DNA of 64,000 nt, taken from assembly GCF_916618955.1 (NCBI RefSeq), contig NZ_OU745390.1, positions 434,001 to 498,000 of the forward strand, read 5' to 3'. Shown here one piece after another: positions 4,371-28,851 of this stretch. A model generated the notes under the pieces. The model ran no database searches. It worked only from the letters and a program-made list of their open reading frames with translations, and was not told the DNA's origin. Source of the stretch: Pseudomonas sp. Marseille-Q3773. GTDB lineage: Bacteria; Pseudomonadota; Gammaproteobacteria; Pseudomonadales; Pseudomonadaceae. Numbering within the stretch: the first letter of the stretch is position 1; each line of letters starts with the position of its first letter. The translations under genes and the position numbers were made by a program.

Positions 4371-5185
4371 TGCACAGTTGGGTCGACGGTCAGCCCGCAG
4401 CTGCAATCAACCTGCAGAACCGCGGCCTGGCCTACGGCGATGGCCTGTTCGAGACCATCGCCGTGTACGGTGGCCGGCCCAGCCTGCTGGACGGCCACCT
4501 CGCACGCCTGGCGCTGGGTTGCCAGCGTCTGGCGATCAATGCCGACCTGGCACTGGTGCGCGACGAACTCCTGCGCTATGCCAGCCAGCTCGGTGATGGT
4601 GTTGCCAAACTCATCCTTACCCGTGGCGATAGCCAGCGCGGCTATGCCCCGCTTGCCGCTGCCGTGCCACGCCGTATCCTGCAGGGCAGCCCATTGCCCA
4701 GCTATCCTGTGGAACATGCCGAACAGGGTGTGCGGCTGTTCCTGTGCCAGACCCGGCTTGGCGAGCAACCACTGCTGGCCGGGTTGAAACACCTCAACCG
4801 CCTGGAGCAGGTGCTGGCCCGTGCCGAATGGCAGGACAGCGAACATGCCGAAGGCTTGATGCGGGACGGGCAGGGCAGGCTGATCGAAGGGGTGTACAGC
4901 AACCTGTTCCTGGTGCGCGACGGCCAGCTGTTCACGGCTGACCTCAGCCGTTGTGGTGTCGCCGGCGTCATGCGCGCGGCACTGCTGCAAGAGGCCGCGC
5001 GGCTGGGCATTCCGGCGCAGGTCTGCGACCTGCCGTTCGAGGCGCTGGAGCAGGCAGATGAAGCATTTGTTTGCAATAGCGTCTACGGTATCTGGCCTGT
5101 GCGTGGCGTAGCCGCGCTAAACTGGTCGCCGGGCCCGCTCACTCGTAAACTGCAGGCCGTTGCCCGTACGTTACTGGAAACCTGA
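4370..5185 (+). CDS. pabC: Aminodeoxychorismate lyase PabC
   Basis: PLP enzyme that splits 4-amino-4-deoxychorismate into p-aminobenzoate and pyruvate in folate synthesis. The 271-residue product is a class IV aminotransferase fold: R-G-L-A-Y-G-D-G-L-F-E-T near residue 18-29, the PLP lysine Lys140 in G-L-K-H-L-N-R, and E-G-V-Y-S-N-L-F near residue 175. ATG at 4370 overlaps the fabF stop (TGATG), indicating translational coupling. Downstream it nearly abuts mltG, whose GTG begins four bases after its stop. The linkage fabF-pabC-mltG is usual in gamma-proteobacteria. Confidence 0.95.
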   Translation: MHSWVDGQPAAAINLQNRGLAYGDGLFETIAVYGGRPSLLDGHLARLALGCQRLAINADLALVRDELLRYASQLGDGVAKLILTRGDSQRGYAPLAAAVPRRILQGSPLPSYPVEHAEQGVRLFLCQTRLGEQPLLAGLKHLNRLEQVLARAEWQDSEHAEGLMRDGQGRLIEGVYSNLFLVRDGQLFTADLSRCGVAGVMRAALLQEAARLGIPAQVCDLPFEALEQADEAFVCNSVYGIWPVRGVAALNWSPGPLTRKLQAVARTLLET

Positions 5186-5189
5186 ATTC

Positions 5190-6377
5190 GTGAGACGCAA
5201 ATTCCTGCTGCTGCTGGAAATGAGCCTGATCCTCGCCGGCCTGGCCGTGGGCTGGTCGGCCTGGAAGGTCAACTCGGTGCTGGAGCAGCCCTTGCACGTG
5301 ACGCAGGAACGCCTGCTCGACGTGCCCAATGGTACCAACCCCAACCGCATGTTCTATCGCATGCAAAGCGAAGGGTTGCTGGACGACGCCGTCTGGTTGC
5401 GCCTGTACTGGCGCTTCAACATGGCAGGCACGCCCTTGCACACCGGCGAGTACCGCCTGACCCCCGGCATGACCGTCGAGCAGCTGTTCGATGCCTGGCG
5501 GCGGGCCGACGTGGTCCAGTACAACCTGACCCTGGTCGAAGGCTGGACCTTCCGTCAGGTGCGTAGCGCCGTGGCCAGGCATGAAAAGATCAAGCACACC
5601 CTGGATGGCCTGTCGGATGCCGAAGTCATGGACCGGCTCGGCCATACCGGCGTGTTCCCCGAAGGGCGCTTCTTCCCCGACACCTACCGCTTCGTGCGCG
5701 GCATGAGTGACGTCGAGCTGCTGCAGCAGGCGTACATGCGCCTGGATGAAGTGCTGGCCAAGGAGTGGGCGGAGCGCGCCACCGATCTGCCGTACCGCGA
5801 CCCGTACCAGGCCCTGATCATGGCCTCGCTGGTGGAGAAGGAAACCGGTATCCCCCAGGAGCGCGGGCAGATTGCCGGCGTCTTCGTGCGGCGCCTGCGC
5901 CTGGGCATGATGCTGCAGACCGACCCGACGGTGATCTACGGCATGGGTGAACGCTACAACGGCAAGATCACCCGTGCCGACCTGCGCGAGCCGACGCCGT
6001 ACAACACCTACACCATGACCGGCCTGCCGCCGACGCCGATCGCCATGGTCGGCCGAGAGGCGATTCATGCGGCGCTCAACCCGTCCGATGGCACCAGCCT
6101 GTACTTCGTCGCCCGTGGCGATGGCAGCCATGTGTTTTCCGACGACCTCGACGACCACAACTCGGCGGTGCGCGAATTCCAGCTCAAGCGCCGCGCGGAC
6201 TACCGCTCCAGCCCCGCGCCACAGCCCGAGCCAGGTGCCGACGAGGCCGCCGCGCCCGAAGCGCCGGCGGCGGATGCGCCGGCGGAGCAGCCAGCGCCCG
6301 ATCAGCCGCCTGCACAGGATGCCCCTGTCGGCGGCGCGCAAGCGGCGGAACGGCCAACGCCTGACGAACAACCATAA
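5190..6377 (+). CDS. mltG: Endolytic murein transglycosylase MltG (YceG)
   Basis: Inner-membrane lytic transglycosylase that cuts nascent peptidoglycan strands and limits glycan length. The 395-residue product has an N-terminal membrane anchor (residues about 4-22), then a LysM-like and YceG domain; Glu218 in V-E-K-E-T-G corresponds to the catalytic glutamate of the E. coli enzyme. The last 60 residues are an Ala/Pro/Glu-rich tail of low complexity. GTG at 5190 is chosen because it places the R-R-K membrane anchor at the N-terminus; an in-frame ATG at 5160 inside pabC is the alternative. In most pseudomonads tmk follows directly; here it does not. Confidence 0.93.
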   Translation: MRRKFLLLLEMSLILAGLAVGWSAWKVNSVLEQPLHVTQERLLDVPNGTNPNRMFYRMQSEGLLDDAVWLRLYWRFNMAGTPLHTGEYRLTPGMTVEQLFDAWRRADVVQYNLTLVEGWTFRQVRSAVARHEKIKHTLDGLSDAEVMDRLGHTGVFPEGRFFPDTYRFVRGMSDVELLQQAYMRLDEVLAKEWAERATDLPYRDPYQALIMASLVEKETGIPQERGQIAGVFVRRLRLGMMLQTDPTVIYGMGERYNGKITRADLREPTPYNTYTMTGLPPTPIAMVGREAIHAALNPSDGTSLYFVARGDGSHVFSDDLDDHNSAVREFQLKRRADYRSSPAPQPEPGADEAAAPEAPAADAPAEQPAPDQPPAQDAPVGGAQAAERPTPDEQP

Positions 6378-6453
6378 GGGTTGTCGGTGTGCCTGGCTAA
6401 CTGATCGTCCTGCAACGGCGCCAGCATCGGTAGTACCTGGCGCTGGCTTGCCC

Positions 6454-7818
6454 TCATGCTGCCTCAAGCAACTGTGGGTGGGGCTGCGAGTCGGGCCGCT
6501 TCAACATCGCGGCCGGGATCGCCATGATTAATGCCCCGCTGACGAACAGGCACAGGCCCAGCACATAGGTGCCGTTGTTGATGTCGCCGGTGAGGTTCTC
6601 CGCCACGGCAGTAATCATCGATCCGGTGAAACCGGACAGGTTGCCGAACGCGTTGATCATGCCAATGCCAGCCGCAGCTGCGACACCTGAGAGTACTGTG
6701 CCTGGCAGCGTCCAGAAGATCGGCATCAGGCTGAGTACCCCTGAGGCAGCGATGGTCAGGAACACGATTGAAAGGACGACGTCATGTGCGAAGGCTGCGC
6801 TGAGGATCAGTCCGCAGCCACCGATGAACGCCGGGATCGCAGCATGCAGCCGACGTTCGCCAGTGCGGTTGGAGTGGCGTGCGTTGAGGAGCATGGCAAT
6901 TACCGCCACGCCATAGGGAATGGCAGTCAGCAAGCCGATTTCCAGGCTGCTGGTCACTCCCGCACTCTTGATGATCGACGGCATCCAGAAGGCCAGGCCG
7001 TAGAAGCCGGTGTTGAACGTCAGCAGGATGAATACGAGCAGCCAGACCCGTGGGCTGAAGAAGGCATCCTTCAGGCGCGAAACCTTGCCGTGCTCATCTT
7101 GCTGCAGGTTGGCCTTGAGCAGTTCCTTTTCTTGCTGGGACAACCAGGCAGCCTTGTCGATGTTGTCGCACAAGCAGCAAAAAACGATTGCCGCCATGAC
7201 CACTGATGGTACGCCCTCGATCAGAAGCATCCACTGCCAGCCGGCCATGCCGTGCCAACCGTCCATGCTGGTCATGAGCCAGCCCGACAAGATACCGCCT
7301 AGCGTCAGGCTGACAGGCAGTGCCATCAGGAAGCCAGACATCACTCGGCTTTGACGGTGGGTCGGGAACCAGTAGTTGAGGTAGAGAATCACGCCTGGGA
7401 AGAAACCGGCCTCACAGATGCCGAGCAGGAAGCGCAGCACGTAGAACATTGTGCTGGACTCGACATGGAAGAACGAGGCGAGGGGCTGGGTAAATGCGAC
7501 AGCCATGGAGACGATGGCCCAGCTCAGCATGATGCGGGCAATCCAGAACCGGGCGCCGTATCGATGCAGCAGCAGGTTGCTCGGGACCTCGAAAAGAAAA
7601 TAGCCCCAGAAGAAAACACTCGCGCCGAGGGCATAGACGGTATTACTGAATTGCAGATCCTCCAGCATGCTCAGTTTCGCGAACCCGATATTCACCCGGT
7701 CGAGATAGGCGGCCATGTAACACAGCAACAGGACCGGCAGGATGCGGATGATTACTTTGCGATAGGTGCGATCCTCGAAAGCCGGATCGCGCACGGGGTC
7801 GACAACTTGATGATACAT
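6454..7818 (-). CDS. MFS transporter, sugar-acid uptake type (probable xylonate permease)
   Basis: A 454-residue major facilitator with about 12 hydrophobic segments, resembling the anion:cation symporter branch (tartrate, glucarate and other sugar-acid permeases): Y-L-D-R-V-N-I-G-F-A-K in the first helix-loop and the R-x-G-A-R-F-W motif near residue 90. ATG at 7818 is chosen over longer frames because AGAGG lies eight bases upstream and the family begins about there. It is the last gene of the minus-strand unit LysR-aldehyde dehydrogenase-MFS, 100 bases after the dehydrogenase. Inference: imports D-xylonate (or L-arabinonate) for the enzymes next door. It converges on mltG with a 76-base gap. 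Confidence 0.8.
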   Translation of the reverse strand: MYHQVVDPVRDPAFEDRTYRKVIIRILPVLLLCYMAAYLDRVNIGFAKLSMLEDLQFSNTVYALGASVFFWGYFLFEVPSNLLLHRYGARFWIARIMLSWAIVSMAVAFTQPLASFFHVESSTMFYVLRFLLGICEAGFFPGVILYLNYWFPTHRQSRVMSGFLMALPVSLTLGGILSGWLMTSMDGWHGMAGWQWMLLIEGVPSVVMAAIVFCCLCDNIDKAAWLSQQEKELLKANLQQDEHGKVSRLKDAFFSPRVWLLVFILLTFNTGFYGLAFWMPSIIKSAGVTSSLEIGLLTAIPYGVAVIAMLLNARHSNRTGERRLHAAIPAFIGGCGLILSAAFAHDVVLSIVFLTIAASGVLSLMPIFWTLPGTVLSGVAAAAGIGMINAFGNLSGFTGSMITAVAENLTGDINNGTYVLGLCLFVSGALIMAIPAAMLKRPDSQPHPQLLEAA

Positions 7819-7917
7819 AACCAGCCTCTTGGCATGTCGTGCATGCCTGATTGTTGTTATTGAAAGAGCACCGGGCACGCCCGCACCCGGTGGTGTTGCG
7901 TCTGTAGGTAACAGTGT

Positions 7918-9501
7918 TCAGCGAATCGGTTCGCGGGTGGGCTGGCCATCGACCAGTCTCAGCAGCCCCAGTGGGTTGGCGTCGCGCAATGCCTCGGGAA
8001 GCAGTGCGTCAGGGAAGTTCTGGTAGCACACCGGACGCAGGAAGCGGTCTATCGCCAGCGTGCCGACCGAGGTTCCGCGGCTATCCGAGGTGGCCGGATA
8101 CGGGCCACCATGAACCATCGCCTCACACACCTCGACGCCGGTCGGGTAACCGTTGACCAGCACCCGGCCAACCTTCTGTTCAAGTACGCAGACCAGAGAT
8201 GCGGCTTGCGCCAGGTCGCCGGGCTCGCCAATCAGCGTGGCGGTCAGTTGGCCGCCAAGCGCGTGCAACGCTGCAACCAGCTGGTCGTGATCAGCCAGTT
8301 CAACCACCACCGTGGCCGGGCCGAAGATTTCTTCCTGCAGCAACGGTTCGCCGTCCAGCAGCAATTTCGCATCGGCCTGGAACAGCTGCGGCCAGGCCTG
8401 GTTACCCTGCTGCTCGGCACCGGCAAGGACACGGATGCCGGCCCGCGCCTTGAGCGTGGCCACACCGCGGGCGTAGCTGGCCAGGGTGTCGGCGTTGAGC
8501 ATGGTTTGCGGCGCCTGTTCGGCCATCTGTGCGCACAAGTGCTCGACGAAGGCGCTGAAGTGCGCTGAGCGTACCCCCAGCACCAAGCCAGGATTGGTGC
8601 AGAACTGCCCGCATCCCAATACCACCGAAGCCGTCAGTTCACGCGCCACGGCCTCGCCGCGAACAGCCAGCGCCTGGGGCAGGACCAGCACCGGGTTGAT
8701 ACTGCTCATTTCGGCGAATACCGGAATAGGCCGAGGTCGCGCCGCTGCCATATCGCACAAGGCCCGTCCGCCCTTGAGCGAGCCGGTGAAACCAACGGCC
8801 TGAATGTCCGGGTGCTTGACCAATGCCTCGCCGACCCTGCCGCCAAACACCATGTTGAATACACCAGCCGGCATCGCGCAGCGCTCAGCGGCACCGACGA
8901 TGGCCTCGGCCACCCATTGCGCTGTGGCCATGTGGCCGCTGTGGGCCTTGAATACCACTGGGCAGCCGGCGGCCAACGCTGCGGCGGTGTCGCCACCGGC
9001 CGTCGAGAATGCCAGGGGGAAGTTGCTGGCGCCAAAGACGGCGACCGGCCCCAGGCCCATGCGGCATTGGCGGATATCCAGGCGCGGCAGTGGCAGACGC
9101 TCGGGCTGGGCACGATCGATGCGAGCGCCGGTGAAATCGCCTCGGCGCAGTACCGTGGCGAACAGTCTCAGCTGGCCACTGGTCCGCGCCCGCTCGCCCT
9201 GGATACGCGCGGGCGGCAAGGCCGTTTCACGGCATACGGTTTCGATGAAGTCGTCGCCCAGGCCATCCAGCGCCTCGGCGATCGCGTCGAGGAACTCGGC
9301 ACGGCGCGCAGCGGGCAGTGCCCGGTAGACCGGATAGGCTGCAGCCGCCGCACGGGCAGCGGCGTCCACCTCTTGTTCCGTGGCTTGATAAAACGCTTCG
9401 GACAGCGCCTGCCCGGTGCGCGCATCGATGCTGTAAAGGGTCGCCTGGCCAGTAGCGCGGCGGCTCCCGCCGATGAATTGTTGGCCTGCGTGTGACGTCA
9501 T
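7918..9501 (-). CDS. 2-oxoglutarate semialdehyde (2,5-dioxovalerate) dehydrogenase
   Basis: NAD(P)-dependent aldehyde dehydrogenase of 527 residues, assigned to the 2-oxoglutarate-semialdehyde branch by the N-terminal F-I-G-G-S-R, the pattern F-A-E-M-S-S-I-N-P around the general-base Glu, and G-Q-F-C-T-N-P-G around the catalytic Cys. It would catalyse the last step of the pentonate route, giving 2-oxoglutarate for the TCA cycle. ATG at 9501 has GAGGA about eight bases upstream and removes a 35-residue unsupported extension. A putative promoter and LysR operator lie just upstream, overlapping the end of the LysR gene. In Weimberg nomenclature it corresponds to XylA of Caulobacter, a symbol avoided here because it clashes with xylose isomerase. 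Confidence 0.88.
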   Translation of the reverse strand: MTSHAGQQFIGGSRRATGQATLYSIDARTGQALSEAFYQATEQEVDAAARAAAAAYPVYRALPAARRAEFLDAIAEALDGLGDDFIETVCRETALPPARIQGERARTSGQLRLFATVLRRGDFTGARIDRAQPERLPLPRLDIRQCRMGLGPVAVFGASNFPLAFSTAGGDTAAALAAGCPVVFKAHSGHMATAQWVAEAIVGAAERCAMPAGVFNMVFGGRVGEALVKHPDIQAVGFTGSLKGGRALCDMAAARPRPIPVFAEMSSINPVLVLPQALAVRGEAVARELTASVVLGCGQFCTNPGLVLGVRSAHFSAFVEHLCAQMAEQAPQTMLNADTLASYARGVATLKARAGIRVLAGAEQQGNQAWPQLFQADAKLLLDGEPLLQEEIFGPATVVVELADHDQLVAALHALGGQLTATLIGEPGDLAQAASLVCVLEQKVGRVLVNGYPTGVEVCEAMVHGGPYPATSDSRGTSVGTLAIDRFLRPVCYQNFPDALLPEALRDANPLGLLRLVDGQPTREPIR

Positions 9502-9538
9502 GGATGATTCCTCGGCGTTACGGAAGACATGGGGCGGT

Positions 9539-9568
9539 AATCTAGGCGGCTCAGCGATTCTTGCCCAA
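9539..9568 (-). promoter_or_regulatory. Predicted promoter of the aldehyde dehydrogenase-MFS unit
   Basis: Read on the minus strand: TTGGGC (9568-9563), 18-base spacer, TAGATT (9544-9539). The -35-like box starts exactly 20 bases after the ATAAC-N5-GTTAT operator, the same geometry as in front of xylX. Confidence 0.55.
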
Positions 9569-9587
9569 TGGCTTTTAGGGATCATCC

Positions 9588-9604
9588 GATAACGGAAGGT
9601 TATC
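9588..9604. promoter_or_regulatory. LysR-type operator, site 1 (GATAAC-N5-GTTATC)
   Basis: Perfect inverted repeat GATAAC (9588-9593) / GTTATC (9599-9604). It overlaps the stop codon of the LysR gene and is centred about 64 bases before the predicted start of the minus-strand transcript, the classical position of a LysR recognition site. The same ATAAC-N5-GTTAT core recurs at 10566-10580. Confidence 0.7.
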
Positions 9605-10547
9605 AATCCTCCGGAACGCGACGCGCATGTGCCAGGAGAATCTCGGCAAACTCCAAGGCCGCGCCGCTCAATGGCTCGCCTTTGCGGGTGAGAATGCCGT
9701 AGTCCTGGGGCGTCAGGTGCAGTGGCGTGTCAAGATTGACCAGTACGCCACTGGCCAGGTGCGGCTCGACCATCGCCTGCGGCAGCATGCCGATCATTGG
9801 CCCGCCCAGCAGCACCTTGAGAAAGGTCTGCATGGATATGGTATCGATGGTATTGCGCGGCACCGCCACGCCCGCCTGGGCGAAGGCGCGCTCCATGCGC
9901 CCGCGGATGGGCGTGCCCTTGGGGTAGAGAATCCAGGGCCACTCCAGCAGCTGTGGCAACGTCACCGGCCCGGCATTGCTCAATGGGTGCTGGTCGTTGA
10001 CCACGAAGCAGAAGGGTTCCGGCGCCAGTGGCTGGAAGTCGAAGCGCTGGTGCTGCGACACGTCGGTGAAGCGGGCCACGGCCAGGTGCAGGATCTTGTC
10101 CTCGAGCATGGCCATCAGGTGATCGCTGGTCTGCTCCACCACCTCGATCGACAGCAATGGCTTGCGCTGCTTGATCTCGACGATGGCATCCGGCAGCGCC
10201 ACGGCGGTGGCAGCAAAAATGCCGCCCACCTTCAAATGGCCGTGCCCCCCTTGGCGCAGGCTGTCGATCTGATCGACGAAGTTGCGCGCATCGTTCAGGG
10301 CGACCTGGGCATAGCGCAATACCTGCTCGCCCAACGCGGTGGGTGGCATGCTGCGCGGCAGACGGTCGAACAGGGCGAAACCGAGCAGATTCTCGATTTC
10401 CTTGAGCATCTTGCTGATCGCCGGCTGGGTGAGGTTCATCTGCTGCGCCGCCAGGTGCATGTTGTGGGTGCGCCCAAGCGTGTCGATCAGCAACAGGTGG
10501 CGGAACTTGAGCCAGTTGCAGACGTGGGAGAAAGACAGGTCCGACAT
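9603..10547 (-). CDS. LysR-family regulator of the xylonate genes
   Basis: A 314-residue LysR regulator: N-terminal winged helix-turn-helix (about residues 18-75, with L-A-A-Q-Q-M-N-L-T-Q-P-A-I-S-K-M) and a periplasmic-binding-like effector domain. It resembles the GbpR/galactose-regulator branch. ATG at 10547 is preferred because it leaves the usual short lead before the helix-turn-helix; an upstream ATG at 10601 would run into the operator region. It is divergent from xylX and upstream of the dehydrogenase-MFS pair. Two copies of one palindrome, at 9588-9604 and 10566-10580, are its likely binding sites. The effector is not known; a pathway intermediate is likely. Confidence 0.85.
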   Translation of the reverse strand: MSDLSFSHVCNWLKFRHLLLIDTLGRTHNMHLAAQQMNLTQPAISKMLKEIENLLGFALFDRLPRSMPPTALGEQVLRYAQVALNDARNFVDQIDSLRQGGHGHLKVGGIFAATAVALPDAIVEIKQRKPLLSIEVVEQTSDHLMAMLEDKILHLAVARFTDVSQHQRFDFQPLAPEPFCFVVNDQHPLSNAGPVTLPQLLEWPWILYPKGTPIRGRMERAFAQAGVAVPRNTIDTISMQTFLKVLLGGPMIGMLPQAMVEPHLASGVLVNLDTPLHLTPQDYGILTRKGEPLSGAALEFAEILLAHARRVPED

Positions 10548-10565
10548 GTGATTCACCTTGTTGCA

Positions 10566-10580
10566 ATAACCCAGTGTTAT
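10566..10580. promoter_or_regulatory. LysR-type operator, site 2 (ATAAC-N5-GTTAT)
   Basis: Perfect inverted repeat ATAAC (10566-10570) / GTTAT (10576-10580) between the divergent LysR and xylX genes. It ends exactly 20 bases before a TTGGAG at 10601 and can serve both autoregulation and xylX activation. Confidence 0.7.
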
Positions 10581-10600
10581 CGAATAGTGAAAAGATGCCA

Positions 10601-10630
10601 TTGGAGTTTATCGCCTGGCATGCCTAGCGT
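10601..10630 (+). promoter_or_regulatory. Predicted xylX-xylD promoter
   Basis: TTGGAG (10601-10606), 18-base spacer, TAGCGT (10625-10630). Weak match to consensus, as expected for an activator-dependent promoter; it copies the spacing of the dehydrogenase promoter on the other side of the LysR gene. Confidence 0.5.
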
Positions 10631-10661
10631 GCAGTTTTCCTGTGCCGAGAGATTTGATGCC

Positions 10662-11864
10662 ATGCCAATGACGCTCACCCCCGCCAATACCCTGCCCGAG
10701 GATGGCCTGACCGGCACCCTGATCGGTCGCGCCTGGACCCCCGGCGAACCTGGGGGCCCTTCGCTGATCACCTTGCGCACCGACGGCGTGTTCGATCTCT
10801 CCGAGCGTTTCGCCACCCTTAGCCAACTGCTCGAATGCGAAGACCCCGTGCAGGCCGTGCGCAGCACCCCGGGCCGCTTCCTGGGCAGCGTCGAAGCCTT
10901 GTTGGGCAATAGCGGCGCAGCGTTCGACGGCAACCAGCCCTACCTGCTTGCACCGGTCGACCTGCAGGTGATCAAGGCGGCAGGTGTGACCTTCGCTGCC
11001 AGCATGATCGAGCGGGTGATCGAAGAGCAGGCCGGTGGCGATGCCAACAAGGCCGAGGCCGTGCGTGCCACGGTGCGCTCGGCGATCGGCGACAACCTGC
11101 GGGCGGTGCGCCCAGGTTCACCGCAGGCCATGGCGCTCAAGGCACTGTTGATCGAACAGGGCATGTGGTCGCAGTATCTGGAAGTGGGCATAGGCCCGGA
11201 TGCCGAGGTTTTCACCAAGGCCCCGGTGCTGGCCGCGGTAGGCAGTGGCAGCGCCATCGGCGTGCACCCGCATTCGGCCTGGAACAACCCCGAGCCCGAG
11301 GTGGTGCTGGCGGTGGACAGCCGCGGTCGCATCCACGGCGCGACCCTGGGCAACGATGTCAACCTGCGCGACTTCGAGGGGCGCAGCGCGCTGCTGCTGA
11401 GCAAGGCCAAGGACAACAACGCTTCGTGCGCGGTGGGCCCGTTCATTCGTTTGTTCGACGAAACCTTCGACCTGGACGCGGTGCGCCGCTGCGTGGTCGA
11501 CCTGGAAGTCGTGGGCAGCGATGGCTACCGCCTGGTCGGCAGCAGTTCGATGGACCAGATCAGCCGCGACCCAGAGGACCTGGTCCGGCAGACGCTCAAT
11601 GAAAACCATCAGTACCCCGACGGTTTCCTGCTGTTCCTCGGTACGCTGTTTGCCCCGACCGAGGACCGTGACCTGCCGGGTGCGGGTTTCACCCACAAGC
11701 CTGGCGACCAGGTGCGCATCGCCAGCCCCTTGCTGGGCCAGTTGCACAACCAGGTCACCACGAGTGACAAGGCCCGCCCCTGGACCTTCGGCCTCGGCGC
11801 GTTGATGCGCAACCTGGCTGCCCGAGGGCTGCTGCACCGCTCTGTCGGGGAATACCGCCCTTGA
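10662..11864 (+). CDS. xylX: 2-keto-3-deoxypentonate dehydratase, XylX/AraD1-type (FAH family)
   Basis: Fumarylacetoacetate-hydrolase-fold protein of 400 residues. It closely resembles Caulobacter XylX, which dehydrates 2-keto-3-deoxy-D-xylonate to 2-oxoglutarate semialdehyde: shared blocks include L-A-P-V-D-L-Q-x-x-K-A-A-G-V-T-F-A, W-S-Q-Y-L-E-V, H-x-W-N-N-P-E-P-E-V-V-L and G-N-D-V-N-L-R-D-F-E-G. The acidic residues of these blocks are typical metal ligands of the fold. ATG at 10662 follows GAGAGA by about a dozen bases; ATG at 10668 is an alternative. It is first in a two-gene unit with xylD. A role in the L-arabinonate route (AraD1) cannot be excluded from sequence alone. Confidence 0.87.
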   Translation: MPMTLTPANTLPEDGLTGTLIGRAWTPGEPGGPSLITLRTDGVFDLSERFATLSQLLECEDPVQAVRSTPGRFLGSVEALLGNSGAAFDGNQPYLLAPVDLQVIKAAGVTFAASMIERVIEEQAGGDANKAEAVRATVRSAIGDNLRAVRPGSPQAMALKALLIEQGMWSQYLEVGIGPDAEVFTKAPVLAAVGSGSAIGVHPHSAWNNPEPEVVLAVDSRGRIHGATLGNDVNLRDFEGRSALLLSKAKDNNASCAVGPFIRLFDETFDLDAVRRCVVDLEVVGSDGYRLVGSSSMDQISRDPEDLVRQTLNENHQYPDGFLLFLGTLFAPTEDRDLPGAGFTHKPGDQVRIASPLLGQLHNQVTTSDKARPWTFGLGALMRNLAARGLLHRSVGEYRP

Positions 11865-11961
11865 TGACGCGGTTGGCAACGGCACCTCAGTGGTGCATAG
11901 CCCTGCACATGCCAGCGTGTTGCAACGCTGACGGGTACCCATAAATACAAGAGAGAACGAC

Positions 11962-13749
11962 ATGACCGATACCGCGAAACGCCCGCTGCGCAGCCAACAA
12001 TGGTTCGACGACCCGAGCCACGCCGACATGACCGCGCTGTACGTCGAGCGCTACATGAACTACGGCCTGACCCGCGACGAACTGCAATCGGGGCGGCCGA
12101 TCATCGGCATCGCCCAGACCGGCAGTGACCTGACGCCCTGCAACCGCCATCACCTGGAACTGGCCCAGCGGGTCAAGGCAGGGATTCGCGATGCCGGCGG
12201 CATCCCCATGGAGTTCCCGGTGCACCCGATCGCCGAGCAGAGCCGCCGGCCAACCGCAGCGCTGGACCGCAATCTCGCCTACCTGGGCCTGGTGGAAATC
12301 CTCCACGGCTACCCGCTGGATGGCGTCGTACTGACCACCGGCTGCGACAAGACCACACCGGCCTGCCTGATGGCCGCTGCCACCACGGACATGCCGGCCA
12401 TCGTGCTGTCCGGCGGCCCGATGCTCGATGGCCACCACAAGGGCCAGCTGATCGGCTCGGGTACGGTGCTGTGGCATGCGCGCAACCTGATGGCCGCGGG
12501 CGCAATCGACTACGAAGGCTTCATGGAGATGACCACCGCCGCGTCGCCGTCGGTAGGCCACTGCAACACCATGGGCACGGCACTCTCGATGAACGCCCTG
12601 GCCGAGGCCCTGGGCATGTCGCTGCCAGGCTGCGCAAGCATCCCCGCACCCTACCGCGAACGCGGGCAGATGGCCTACGCCACCGGGCGGCGCATCTGCG
12701 AGCTGGTGATGCAGGACGTGCGCCCGTCGTCGATCATGACCCGCGAGGCGTTCGAGAATGCCATTGCCGTGGCTTCGGCCCTGGGTGCTTCGAGCAACTG
12801 TCCACCGCACCTGATCGCTATCGCCCGGCACATGGGCATCGAGCTGTCGCTGGACGACTGGCAGCGCATTGGTGAGAACGTGCCGCTGCTGGTCAACTGC
12901 ATGCCGGCGGGCAAGTACCTGGGTGAAGGCTTCCATCGCGCGGGCGGCGTTCCGGCGGTGATGCATGAACTGCGCAAGGCCGGCCGTCTGCACGAGGAAT
13001 GCGCGACGGTCAGCGGCAAGACCATCGGTGAAGTGGTTCGCGACGCAGCCACCAGCAATCGCGAGGTCATCCTGCCGTTCGATGCGCCGCTCAAGCACAA
13101 CGCCGGATTCATCGTGCTCAGCGGCAATTTCTTCGACAGCGCGATCATGAAGATGTCGGTAGTGGGCGAAGCCTTCCGCAAGACCTACCTGGCCGAACCA
13201 GGCAAGGAAAACAGCTTCGAGGCCAGGGCGATCGTGTTCGAGGGGCCGGAGGACTACCATGCGCGCATCGACGACCCCGCACTGGACATCGACGAGCGTT
13301 GCATCCTGGTGATTCGTGGCGCCGGTACCGTGGGCTACCCGGGCAGTGCCGAAGTGGTGAACATGGCGCCGCCGGCGGCACTGATCAGGAAAGGCATCGA
13401 TTCGCTGCCGTGTCTGGGCGATGGCCGCCAGAGCGGCACCTCGGCCAGCCCGTCGATCCTCAACATGTCGCCGGAGGCGGCGGTGGGCGGCGGCCTGGCA
13501 TTACTGCAGACCAACGATTGGCTGCGTGTGGACCTCAACCAGCGGCGGGTCGACCTGCTGGTTGACGACGATGAGGTGGCACGTCGACGAGCGGCCTGGA
13601 AGCCGAACATCCCGGCCTCGCAGACACCCTGGCAGGAACTCTATCGGCAACTCGTGGGCCAGTTGTCCACCGGTGGCTGCCTGGAACCGGCGACGCTGCA
13701 CATGCGTGTGATCGCACGTGAAGGGGGGATGCCGCGGCATTCCCATTGA
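11962..13749 (+). CDS. xylD: D-xylonate (pentonate) dehydratase, IlvD/Edd family
   Basis: Fe-S dehydratase of 595 residues that turns a pentonate into the 2-keto-3-deoxy acid. Long stretches match Caulobacter XylD as remembered, including W-F-D-x-P-x-H-x-D-M-T-A-L-Y, I-I-G-I-A-Q-T-G-S-D and the C-terminal P-R-H-x-H. Cys60 (T-P-C-N-R), Cys128 (T-G-C-D-K-T-T-P-A) and Cys201 (G-H-C-N-T-M-G-T) are the expected cluster ligands. Its ATG has GAGAGAACG upstream. It lies 97 bases after xylX on the same strand. Together with xylX, the semialdehyde dehydrogenase and the permease this gives an unbroken path from xylonate to 2-oxoglutarate. L-arabinonate is the main alternative substrate. Confidence 0.9.
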   Translation: MTDTAKRPLRSQQWFDDPSHADMTALYVERYMNYGLTRDELQSGRPIIGIAQTGSDLTPCNRHHLELAQRVKAGIRDAGGIPMEFPVHPIAEQSRRPTAALDRNLAYLGLVEILHGYPLDGVVLTTGCDKTTPACLMAAATTDMPAIVLSGGPMLDGHHKGQLIGSGTVLWHARNLMAAGAIDYEGFMEMTTAASPSVGHCNTMGTALSMNALAEALGMSLPGCASIPAPYRERGQMAYATGRRICELVMQDVRPSSIMTREAFENAIAVASALGASSNCPPHLIAIARHMGIELSLDDWQRIGENVPLLVNCMPAGKYLGEGFHRAGGVPAVMHELRKAGRLHEECATVSGKTIGEVVRDAATSNREVILPFDAPLKHNAGFIVLSGNFFDSAIMKMSVVGEAFRKTYLAEPGKENSFEARAIVFEGPEDYHARIDDPALDIDERCILVIRGAGTVGYPGSAEVVNMAPPAALIRKGIDSLPCLGDGRQSGTSASPSILNMSPEAAVGGGLALLQTNDWLRVDLNQRRVDLLVDDDEVARRRAAWKPNIPASQTPWQELYRQLVGQLSTGGCLEPATLHMRVIAREGGMPRHSH

Positions 13750-13865
13750 GTGTGCTTCGGGGGCCTGGAGCTGCCTCCATACCGGGCAACGGTGGCAGTT
13801 CCACCCTGCGGCAATTCACAGTCCATGTGCCGGCATGGCCTGGTCGCATTCGTTGTGTATTTTCT

Positions 13866-14702
13866 TCATTGTCTTGCGATCGATTTCTGGCAAGCCGTTA
13901 CGGGTCTGCTTTGCTGCCATGCGTGCTGCACAGCTGCCTGCAGGTCACTCAGAGAACCCGCGTTGGTGATCAGCAGGTCGCCGGGTGCCTGGGCAATGCC
14001 GTGCTCGGATGAATGTGCATTCACCTTCTGAAGGTTCGGGCGAACGATGTGCCAGATAAGGCCGTTGTGGCCGCGAAGAAATGCGGCTTCGTTTTCAAAG
14101 CGGATGTCTTTGAAGATCACGGTCGTAGCGTCAGCAGGGATCTTGCTGCGCGGCTGCAACTGTTCGAGAGGGCGCTTGGCGCGACGCGCGTCATAGTCCG
14201 GGTACAAGGCGTATGCGTGGCCTTTGAGGAGTTCGATGGCTTCAGCGGGTGAAAGGCCCCAGGTGGGGTCCTGGCGGGTCAGGAGCACTGGGTCTGAAAG
14301 CTGCTCGTCACTGAAATCGAAGAAGGCTTGCGCGGCCAGGGTAAATGGGGTGTGGTTTGGCTTCGAACGTGAAGCCTTGATCACACAGGTCTGTGCGGCC
14401 GCAGGTGGATTGATTTCGCGTTCCGCTCGGATCAGCCAGTGGTCTGGGTTATGATTGCGCATCCATTCGGTACCAACCGTCTGGAAGAATTCTCTTGGAG
14501 AGCGGGCCCAAAGATCGATGGGCTGCTCCTTGATGTCATCGCTCCATGTCTCGTCGTCGGTGAGACCAAACAGCGCCTGGCAGCCAAGCTTGAGAGGATC
14601 GGCAAGTGCGTAGGCAGCAACCCCTGGGTAGCTCAGCAGCATTGAAGCTACGGTGTCCTTACCTGACCGAGCCAGGGCCGCAAGGCCGATGATTGTTCGC
14701 AT
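13866..14702 (-). CDS. Phage-type deoxynucleoside monophosphate kinase (P-loop)
   Basis: A 278-residue protein with an N-terminal Walker A loop (G-L-A-A-L-A-R-S-G-K-D-T, residues 6-17) followed by A-D-P-L-K, a pattern of phage deoxynucleotide monophosphate kinases of the T4 gene 1 type; F-x-D-I-R-F-x-N-E-A near residue 205 also fits. The start at 14702 has GGGGAG eight bases upstream. G+C is visibly lower than in flanking genes and the orientation opposes the host operon, both signs of acquisition. It occupies the place between mltG and holB where thymidylate kinase (tmk) is normally found. Inference: it may phosphorylate dTMP. Assignment to the family is good, substrate is unproven. Confidence 0.72.
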   Translation of the reverse strand: MRTIIGLAALARSGKDTVASMLLSYPGVAAYALADPLKLGCQALFGLTDDETWSDDIKEQPIDLWARSPREFFQTVGTEWMRNHNPDHWLIRAEREINPPAAAQTCVIKASRSKPNHTPFTLAAQAFFDFSDEQLSDPVLLTRQDPTWGLSPAEAIELLKGHAYALYPDYDARRAKRPLEQLQPRSKIPADATTVIFKDIRFENEAAFLRGHNGLIWHIVRPNLQKVNAHSSEHGIAQAPGDLLITNAGSLSDLQAAVQHAWQQSRPVTACQKSIARQ

Positions 14703-14755
14703 GTCGTACTCCCCGTTTGCTGCCCGAACTCCTGTATCTACTGGGCTTCAAGGGC

Positions 14756-14800
14756 GTTTACGTTTTCGAAGAAGGATTGTAACCCACAGTGTTTACGTTT
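14756..14800. repeat. Direct repeat GTTTACGTTT between the dNMP kinase and holB
   Basis: GTTTACGTTT occurs at 14756-14765 and again at 14791-14800, 35 bases apart, in the gap between the divergent kinase gene and holB. CGAAAAC at 14810-14816 is the complement of GTTTTCG at 14762-14768. Could be operator half-sites or a trace of a recombination event. Confidence 0.5.
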
Positions 14801-14879
14801 GGTGAAAACCGAAAACATGATGCCACCTATGCCTGTCAGGGCGGCGGGCGCGGTTCGCCTGTCGAGCGTATTGCCACCC

Positions 14880-15866
14880 ATGGCTGAGGTCTTTCCCTGG
14901 CAGCAGGCCCTGTGGCAACAACTGGCCGGCCGCAGCCGGCACGCTCACGCCTACCTGCTGCACGGGCCGCAGGGTATCGGCAAGCGGGCCCTGGCCGAGC
15001 GCCTCATGGCGTATCTGCTGTGCCAGCAGCCCCAAGGCCTGGAGGCCTGTGGTGGGTGCAAGTCCTGCCTGTTGCTGAAGGCCGGCAGCCACCCGGACAA
15101 TTTTGTCCTCGAGCCTGAGGAAGCCGACAAGCCGATCAAGGTCGACCAGGTGCGCGATCTGGTGGCTTTCGTGGTACAGACAGCACAGCAGGGCGGGCGC
15201 AAGGTGGTGCTGATCGAACCGGTGGAAGCGATGAACGTCAACGCCTCCAACGCCCTGCTCAAGAGCCTCGAAGAGCCTTCCGGCGATACCGTGCTGCTGC
15301 TGGTCTCCCATCAGCCCAGTCGCTTGCTGCCCACCATCAAGAGCCGCTGCCAGCAGGTTGCCTGCCCGCAGCCCAGCCTGGCGCAGAGCCGGGCCTGGCT
15401 GGCGAGTGCGCTACCTGACAGTGACGAGGCCGAGCGCGATGAATTGCTGACGCTGGCTGCCGGCTCACCGTTGCTGGCCGTCAGCCTGCAGGCGCAAGGC
15501 GTGCGCGAGCAGCGGGCGCTGGTGACCGACGGGGTGAAGAAGCTGCTCAAGCAGCAGCAATCGCCCAGCCAGCTGGCCGAGGCGTGGAACAACGTGCCGC
15601 TGTTGCTGCTGTTCGACTGGTTCTGCGATTGGGCGCAGCTGATCCTGCGCTACCAATTGACCCAGGACGAGGAGGGGCTAGGCTTGGCCGATATGCGCAA
15701 GGTGGTGCAGTACCTGGCGCAGAAGAGCCGTCAGGCCAAGGTGCTGGAGGTGCAGGCGTGGCTCCTGGAGCAACGCCAGAAGGTGCTGGGCAAGGCCAAC
15801 CTCAATCGCGCCCTGTTGCTTGAGTCACTGCTGGCCCACTGGCTGCAATTGCCGGGCGCCCGCTGA
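14880..15866 (+). CDS. holB: DNA polymerase III delta' subunit HolB
   Basis: Clamp-loader subunit of 328 residues that, with gamma/tau and delta, opens the beta clamp. Motifs: G-P-Q-G-I-G-K-R at residues 28-35 (degenerate Walker A), four zinc-binding cysteines in C-Q-Q-P...C-G-G-C-K-S-C (residues about 47-62), and the sensor-like N-A-S-N-A-L-L-K-S-L-E-E-P near residue 122. ATG at 14880 is chosen because homologues begin M-A-E-x-Y/F-P-W-Q; earlier in-frame codons back to 14799 give no homologous residues. tmk, its usual upstream partner, is missing, and the usual downstream pilZ is also missing, with only 30 bases to tatD. Confidence 0.93.
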   Translation: MAEVFPWQQALWQQLAGRSRHAHAYLLHGPQGIGKRALAERLMAYLLCQQPQGLEACGGCKSCLLLKAGSHPDNFVLEPEEADKPIKVDQVRDLVAFVVQTAQQGGRKVVLIEPVEAMNVNASNALLKSLEEPSGDTVLLLVSHQPSRLLPTIKSRCQQVACPQPSLAQSRAWLASALPDSDEAERDELLTLAAGSPLLAVSLQAQGVREQRALVTDGVKKLLKQQQSPSQLAEAWNNVPLLLLFDWFCDWAQLILRYQLTQDEEGLGLADMRKVVQYLAQKSRQAKVLEVQAWLLEQRQKVLGKANLNRALLLESLLAHWLQLPGAR

Positions 15867-28775: not shown

Positions 28776-28851
28776 GTCCCCTTCGTCTAGTGGCCTAGGA
28801 CACCGCCCTTTCACGGCGGTAACAGGGGGTCGAGTCCCCTAGGGGCCGCCA
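28776..28851 (+). tRNA. tRNA-Glu (TTC), variant copy 2, possibly impaired
   Basis: Differs from copies 1 and 3 at two places. The invariant T54 of the T loop is G (loop GTCGAGT instead of TTCGAGT), and the 3' acceptor strand reads AGGGGCC instead of AGGGGAC, so pair 2-71 becomes T-C. Both changes hit conserved structural positions: T54 normally stacks against A58, and the acceptor stem is read by the synthetase. The rest of the cloverleaf and the TTC anticodon are intact. It may be a decaying copy in a tandem array, or a sequencing error. Confidence 0.85.

Follow-up and report, generated by a model that had tools for sequence, protein, structure and literature searches.

The chromosome of Pseudomonas sp. 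Marseille-Q3773 appears to record a real non-orthologous replacement of an essential enzyme, in which the standard thymidylate kinase (Tmk) gave way to an acquired deoxynucleoside monophosphate (dNMP) kinase encoded in the tmk slot between mltG and holB. The genome (G000) is a single contig (C1) of 5,557,112 bases with a completeness of 100%, and the stretch analyzed here, called the window, comprises 64,000 nucleotides of it (G000:C1:434001-498000); positions are those of the window unless a genome or locus is named. A replacement of this kind has already been demonstrated in P. putida KT2440, and the window would represent its final state, with a history that is still legible. The idea was raised in a preliminary description of the window and is the best-supported reading, because no standard Tmk was found in the genome, all 17 relatives of the kinase lie at the tmk/holB locus, none of the 16 relatives' genomes searched has an intact standard Tmk, and KT2440 provides a precedent. 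What remains in the slot is very probably explained by a genomic island that inserted into tmk, supplied the kinase that took over, and then decayed.

The tmk Fossil and the Island End

A fossil of tmk (14819..14878, +) precedes holB. Its 20 codons translate to DATYACQGGGRGSPVERIAT, which agrees with the Tmk consensus at 17 of 20 positions (the runner-up in all six frames of the 64-kb window reached 8 of 20), so the earlier statement that no tmk remnant is visible was mistaken. The fossil begins at the insertion point within the motif DRFT|DATYAYQ; in relatives with intact islands, the cut in tmk likewise separates the DRFT codons from those of D(A/S)TYAYQ. Upstream of the fossil is a retained island end (14756..14817, +) with GTTTAC boxes at 14756-14761 and 14791-14796 and the terminus GAAAACCGAAAACA. 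It aligns with the ends of intact islands, which on the holB side read ...GTTTAC...GTTTAC(A/G)TTT...GAAAACCGAAAACAA and then continue as tmk, and it stops at 14817; just one end is kept. In a blastn comparison, positions 14744-14879 matched the island-end/tmk junction of BP8 at 84% over 137 nt (E 1.4e-37). The same arrangement of kinase, island end, and fossil was found independently in Pseudomonas sp. UBA4617 (L100), making an assembly error unlikely.

The intact islands show how such a junction is built. A GTAAAC or GTCAAC box within imperfect inverted repeats was present near both ends in 10 of 10 islands; in 8 of these, by our own reading, the six bases beside the tmk arm are not the same at one end as at the other. 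Tn554 may offer a parallel for such a 6-bp junction rule. The islands separate the tmk halves by 12.6 kb in FD6, 33.5 kb in BP8, 52 kb in the metagenome-assembled genome (MAG) G259, and 66 kb in P. psychrophila. The 5' half of tmk reads on into foreign sequence and is not completed there, which rules out an island that restores tmk at its other junction. A split tmk acting as two halves, an idea that was tested for KT2440 (PMC10653934), was ruled out for the window, where 20 codons are left. A TTTAC/TATAAT-like pair could be aligned in the island ends by eye, without statistics, and is weaker in the window; the island edge may bring a promoter that keeps holB expressed.

The dNMP Kinase

The kinase gene (13866..14702, −) encodes a long-form protein of 278 aa, the putative thymidylate kinase. 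Its match to PF21448 (70.7 bits; curated cut-off 27.1) places it with the T4 gp1 type, and it matched PHROG 139 (phrog_139, deoxynucleoside monophosphate kinase) with 151.7 bits. PF21448 was the sole Pfam match, no NCBIfam model was matched at E 0.001, and the thymidylate kinase profiles PF02223 and TIGR00041 were not matched. By sequence, the only plausible relative in the PDB is the T4 kinase 1dek/1del (E 1.4e-9), whose fold and ligand-binding residues (1dek) the window kinase shares. The preliminary description had called the minus-strand gene a phage-type dNMP kinase; the family assignment stands (PF21448, phrog_139, 1dek), but phages are only remote kin. Identity to phage relatives was at most 43.4% among the best 15 of 68 records, and all 68 fell below 60%. 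Unlike the T4 gene 1 kinase, the window kinase has a longer central part and is chromosomal, and phage genes are absent nearby. Substrates of the T4 enzyme are dGMP, dTMP, and hydroxymethyl-dCMP, as cited in PMC10653934. We infer that the window kinase would act on dTMP and would be essential for its host. The ratio of nonsynonymous to synonymous substitutions (dN/dS) between the window kinase and that of UBA4617 was 0.197, against 0.032-0.133 for the other 6 of 7 genes in this single genome pair; the kinase is under purifying selection, though less constrained than its neighbors.

Absence of a Standard Tmk

The check proposed at the outset was a search for a normal, full-length tmk elsewhere in the genome. 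None was found, because the sole match to PF02223 or TIGR00041 is a divergent protein of 208 aa (G000:C1:1476310-1476936; L002:8311-8937) that scores 35.8 bits with TIGR00041, below the cut-off of 83.25. As a control, the same search recovered Tmk in 13 of 14 known genomes. Were the 208-aa protein the working thymidylate kinase, the dNMP kinase would be a passenger. In its favor are a PF02223 match along the entire protein (37 bits), a match to phrog_761, a thymidylate kinase family, and a 60% identical copy in G003. Proteins of this weak class (26-39 bits), however, also occur in four of five genomes with a standard Tmk (G101, G213, G227, and G245) and therefore do not explain the loss of Tmk; they are also missing from 8 of the 16 genomes with a long dNMP kinase. 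PP_3363, a further KT2440 gene annotated as a thymidylate kinase, is dispensable according to PMC10653934, an analogy that may point the same way. We consider a working role for the 208-aa protein in place of the dNMP kinase improbable.

A survey of the genus tied the loss of Tmk to the long form of the kinase. Sixteen of 249 sampled genomes had a kinase match, five with the long form (G000, G003, G085, G096, and G171) and 11 with a short, prophage-like form (~190 aa); the latter, together with the weak loci L102-L105, were excluded from the long-form counts. Best segments of the other four long-form kinases were 54-71% identical to the window kinase. An intact standard Tmk was absent from 5/5 long-form genomes versus 5/244 others (Fisher p 3.3e-8), and the remaining 239 of the 244 gave a Tmk match with E of 1e-48 or better. 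Two of the five exceptions are incomplete assemblies (G075, 87%; G239, 77%), and in G139 and G178 tmk is interrupted by contig ends. In the fifth, G108, alignments place mltG and holB ~108 nt apart with tmk missing between them (L167), and a foreign Tmk of 233 aa is encoded elsewhere (L060:9719-10420). The holB gene of G108 is split over two frames in the assembly, so sequencing errors are possible there.

Relatives at the tmk/holB Locus

When named genomes were scanned with a five-kinase alignment, 21 loci were returned, 17 of them with the long form (49-94% identity). Every one of the 17 is at the tmk/holB locus: 16 have holB as the adjacent gene, and at the Acinetobacter locus the 3' half of tmk is present. 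That half adjoins the kinase in 13 of the 17, and recombinase genes are present in 11 (FD6 has an internal deletion, and L099 is cut by a contig end), among Pseudomonas species, one Glaciecola MAG, and further MAGs of gammaproteobacteria. G096 and G171 carry tmk in two pieces on two contigs, the 5' piece by mltG and the 3' piece by holB, with the kinase adjoining the 3' piece and recombinase genes beyond. Within the stretches examined, recombinase genes were not found in P. bohemica, two P. fuscovaginae, P. cremoricolorata, UBA4617, or, by this search, the divergent Acinetobacter locus. The P. cremoricolorata genome (DSM 17059; L094/G258) and G003 are alike, though the two may be separate genomes.

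No intact standard Tmk was found in the 16 relatives' genomes searched, which are mostly drafts or MAGs (L096 completes the 17). Full-length PF02223 matches in these genomes were all of the weak class (26-35 bits), and eight had none; three of the eight (P. bohemica, P. fuscovaginae SE-1, and P. cremoricolorata) lacked even half a match. The reading that an island inserted, brought the kinase, and decayed rests on these counts, with every long-form kinase at tmk/holB, the tmk 3' half in 13 loci, recombinases in 11, and an intact standard Tmk in none of the genomes searched.

Intact relatives carry a four-gene recombination module next to the kinase, and the vehicle was very probably a genomic island with tyrosine recombinases. 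In P. protegens FD6, an internal deletion (L136:13517-15361) fuses the first two module genes, so this island is probably frozen. Related recombination modules were seen elsewhere in the chromosome of G227, G213, and G245 (L078, L079, and L080), where tmk is intact and no kinase gene was seen beside them. The BP8 island carries an anti-phage Gabija pair as cargo (L138:3889-7499; GajA, 1072 bits; GajB, 847 bits). A recombinase query against plasmids matched eight Pseudomonas records at 26-27% identity over at most 43%.

Decay is graded among the relatives. Island-end sequence survives in UBA4617, in P. bohemica, which also has a decayed 3' part of tmk, and in P. fuscovaginae, where the island end is degenerate. 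A maximum-likelihood tree built from 18 long and 5 short kinases placed the window and UBA4617 sequences with the BP8 kinase, which is island-borne (100/99). Of the other relics, that of bohemica grouped with the graminis island (100/99) and that of cremoricolorata with a MAG kinase carried on an island (98/99); P. fuscovaginae branched off by itself above an open fork. Since bare kinases are scattered among island-borne ones, the tree fits repeated island loss. It bears on an alternative left open by PMC10653934, that the chromosomal, stand-alone kinase came first and islands captured it later. P. cremoricolorata, with neither an island end nor a tmk piece, is as this alternative would have it, as are stand-alone copies with mobile genes absent nearby that the paper describes in some beta-proteobacteria and in Methylomicrobium. 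Against it, the window kinase has as its neighbor an island end joined directly to a tmk piece whose first codon is at the insertion point, island-end sequence is also kept in UBA4617, P. bohemica, and P. fuscovaginae, and stand-alone copies cluster with different island-borne copies. An older origin may hold for the deepest stand-alone copies; for the window locus, the fossil and the island end speak against it, and we regard capture of an ancestral kinase as slightly less probable still than a working 208-aa protein.

Sister Islands with a Complete Tmk

A second type of island was found in G152 (L081 and L143) and in G590 (L158 and L168), a genome of another family of the same order. Both have the same four-gene module and cut tmk within its P-loop codons, so that the native gene loses its first part, and at the edge facing mltG both encode a complete Tmk, with 58% identity between the two proteins. 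The islands span ~104 kb in G152 and ~21 kb in G590. The large module protein of this type was strongly matched in 1 of 341 genomes of the order (G590), with two weak matches besides. Cargo of the G152 island includes GajA of Gabija (L081:619-2571; 1192 bits). Our literature search of open-licence papers found no report of tmk-bearing islands.

Comparison with Known Systems

The closest precedent is KT2440, in which PP_1964 was shown in vivo to be the sole thymidylate kinase and an island splits tmk (PMC10653934, mBio 2023). There, too, the dNMP kinase lies at the edge of the island beside holB, with four conserved genes by it, and the paper also mentions stand-alone copies between mltG and holB. 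This arrangement, an interrupted tmk with the kinase at the holB-side edge, was found intact in relatives and as a relic in the window; unlike in KT2440, the island is gone, and the slot now holds the kinase, the island end, the 20-codon fossil, and a catabolic cluster. The paper leaves open whether stand-alone copies arose by island loss or are ancestral, and its main text does not contain the word "remnant." The replacement, the island, and stand-alone copies were thus known; the window adds the fossil and the island end, which support island loss at this locus.

Strand-biased circularizing integrative elements (SEs) carry the recombination genes intA, tfp, intB, and srap (PMC10214605). As described there, they resemble intact tmk islands in having imperfect inverted repeats at the ends and 6-bp spacers at the junctions, and in a protein set of large and ordinary tyrosine recombinases, one large protein that lacks a recombinase domain, and one more small protein. 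Size and domain pattern agree, but the order differs, the ordinary recombinase being last rather than first in tmk islands; the likeness is one to the published description of the Vibrio SEs. With no match to the recA-like gene in the genome and no recombinase match in its first 30 kb, the window is at most an SE relic. GInts likewise have a four-gene recombination module at one end, site-specific insertion, and many kilobases of cargo, and transcription is reported to run from inside ginA outward into the adjacent gene (PMC5385486). By description, the fourth protein differs: it has ~320-360 aa in tmk islands and is small in GInts, and no small fourth gene corresponding to the helix-loop-helix GinD of ginABCD was seen in the relatives. 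Neither "kinase" nor "tmk" occurs in the main text of either paper. No Gamma-Mobile-Trio model appeared in NCBIfam scans of the recombination proteins, a negative that is compatible with kinship.

Neighboring Genes

The slot is bounded on the left by mltG (5160..6377, +; PF02618, 278 bits; TIGR00247, 269 bits) and on the right by holB (14880..15866, +), whose likely start, ATG 14880, is immediately 3' of the fossil; the mechanical open reading frame (ORF) runs from 14799, and NF004310 matched ORF residues 28-354 with 553 bits. The separation of ~8.5 kb and the lack of a tmk gene between them, both noted in the preliminary description, were confirmed. Between mltG and the kinase, the ORF list shows a catabolic cluster (6454..13749) with a transporter, an aldehyde dehydrogenase, a LysR regulator, an FAH-like protein, and an IlvD/Edd-like dehydratase, names that were assigned by eye and from the preliminary description without a family scan. 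UBA4617 has the same gene order, and cluster-like DNA occurs in G244, G077, and G045 (85-86% over 5.3 kb), in G244 at 3.8 Mb from tmk. A search of the slot found no island end on the mltG side of the cluster. The cluster may or may not have been island cargo; a near-identical order is also seen elsewhere in related genomes. The six-frame scan also returned a local repeat, two near-identical 20-residue stretches at 28794 and 29049, 255 bases apart.

Discussion

The history proposed here would begin with a genomic island with tyrosine recombinases that entered tmk at the conserved DRFT|D(A/S)TYAYQ codons and split an essential gene. The T4-gp1-type kinase at that island edge would have taken over the conversion of dTMP to dTDP. 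Once tmk was inactive and the cell depended on the kinase, nothing would have kept the remaining island and the two tmk halves from decaying. Of the island and of tmk, this genome retains the kinase, an island end of 62 nt, and 20 tmk codons; the recombinases, the tmk 5' half, and almost the entire 3' half are missing. The catabolic cluster lies between mltG and the kinase, and both its arrival there and the order of the losses are inferred. This history is supported from sequence by the missing standard Tmk, the retained fossil and island end, a series of intermediates among relatives, purifying selection, and the fold.

Several observations weigh on the other side. The far island end left no trace in the slot (best E 0.09), and no recombinase remnant was found in the first 30 kb of the window or in the genome. 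The P. cremoricolorata kinase occupies the slot without an island end or tmk fossil, the dN/dS of the kinase is the highest of the seven genes compared (one genome pair), and the divergent Tmk-like protein (G000:C1:1476310-1476936) may be a helper. That a normal tmk is present and was missed, through an assembly gap or an unusual gene, is scarcely credible, as nothing was found in its favor, given one contig at full completeness and the performance of the same six-frame search in the control and in 239 of the 244 other sampled genomes.

Island insertion followed by decay would turn the KT2440 oddity into a series that runs from fresh through decayed islands to a bare kinase beside a tmk fossil, and it brings sequence evidence to the published question of whether stand-alone dNMP kinases stem from island loss. 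Pseudomonads without tmk matter for annotation and for predictions of essentiality, because the P. aeruginosa Tmk has solved drug-target structures (PDB). A wider view is reasonably likely: one kind of recombinase island targeted tmk at least twice, at the DRF and P-loop codons, and paid with an edge kinase, a dNMP kinase in one case and a foreign Tmk in the other. Such an antidote would open a conserved target in many hosts and make loss of the kinase lethal, and decay would then make the replacement permanent, as it would have done at least four times in the Pseudomonas relics; an edge promoter for holB may come with it. The Tmk-bearing sister islands would make "target an essential gene, bring a replacement" a general and testable strategy, and the window suggests a route by which a mobile element can permanently replace an essential core enzyme.
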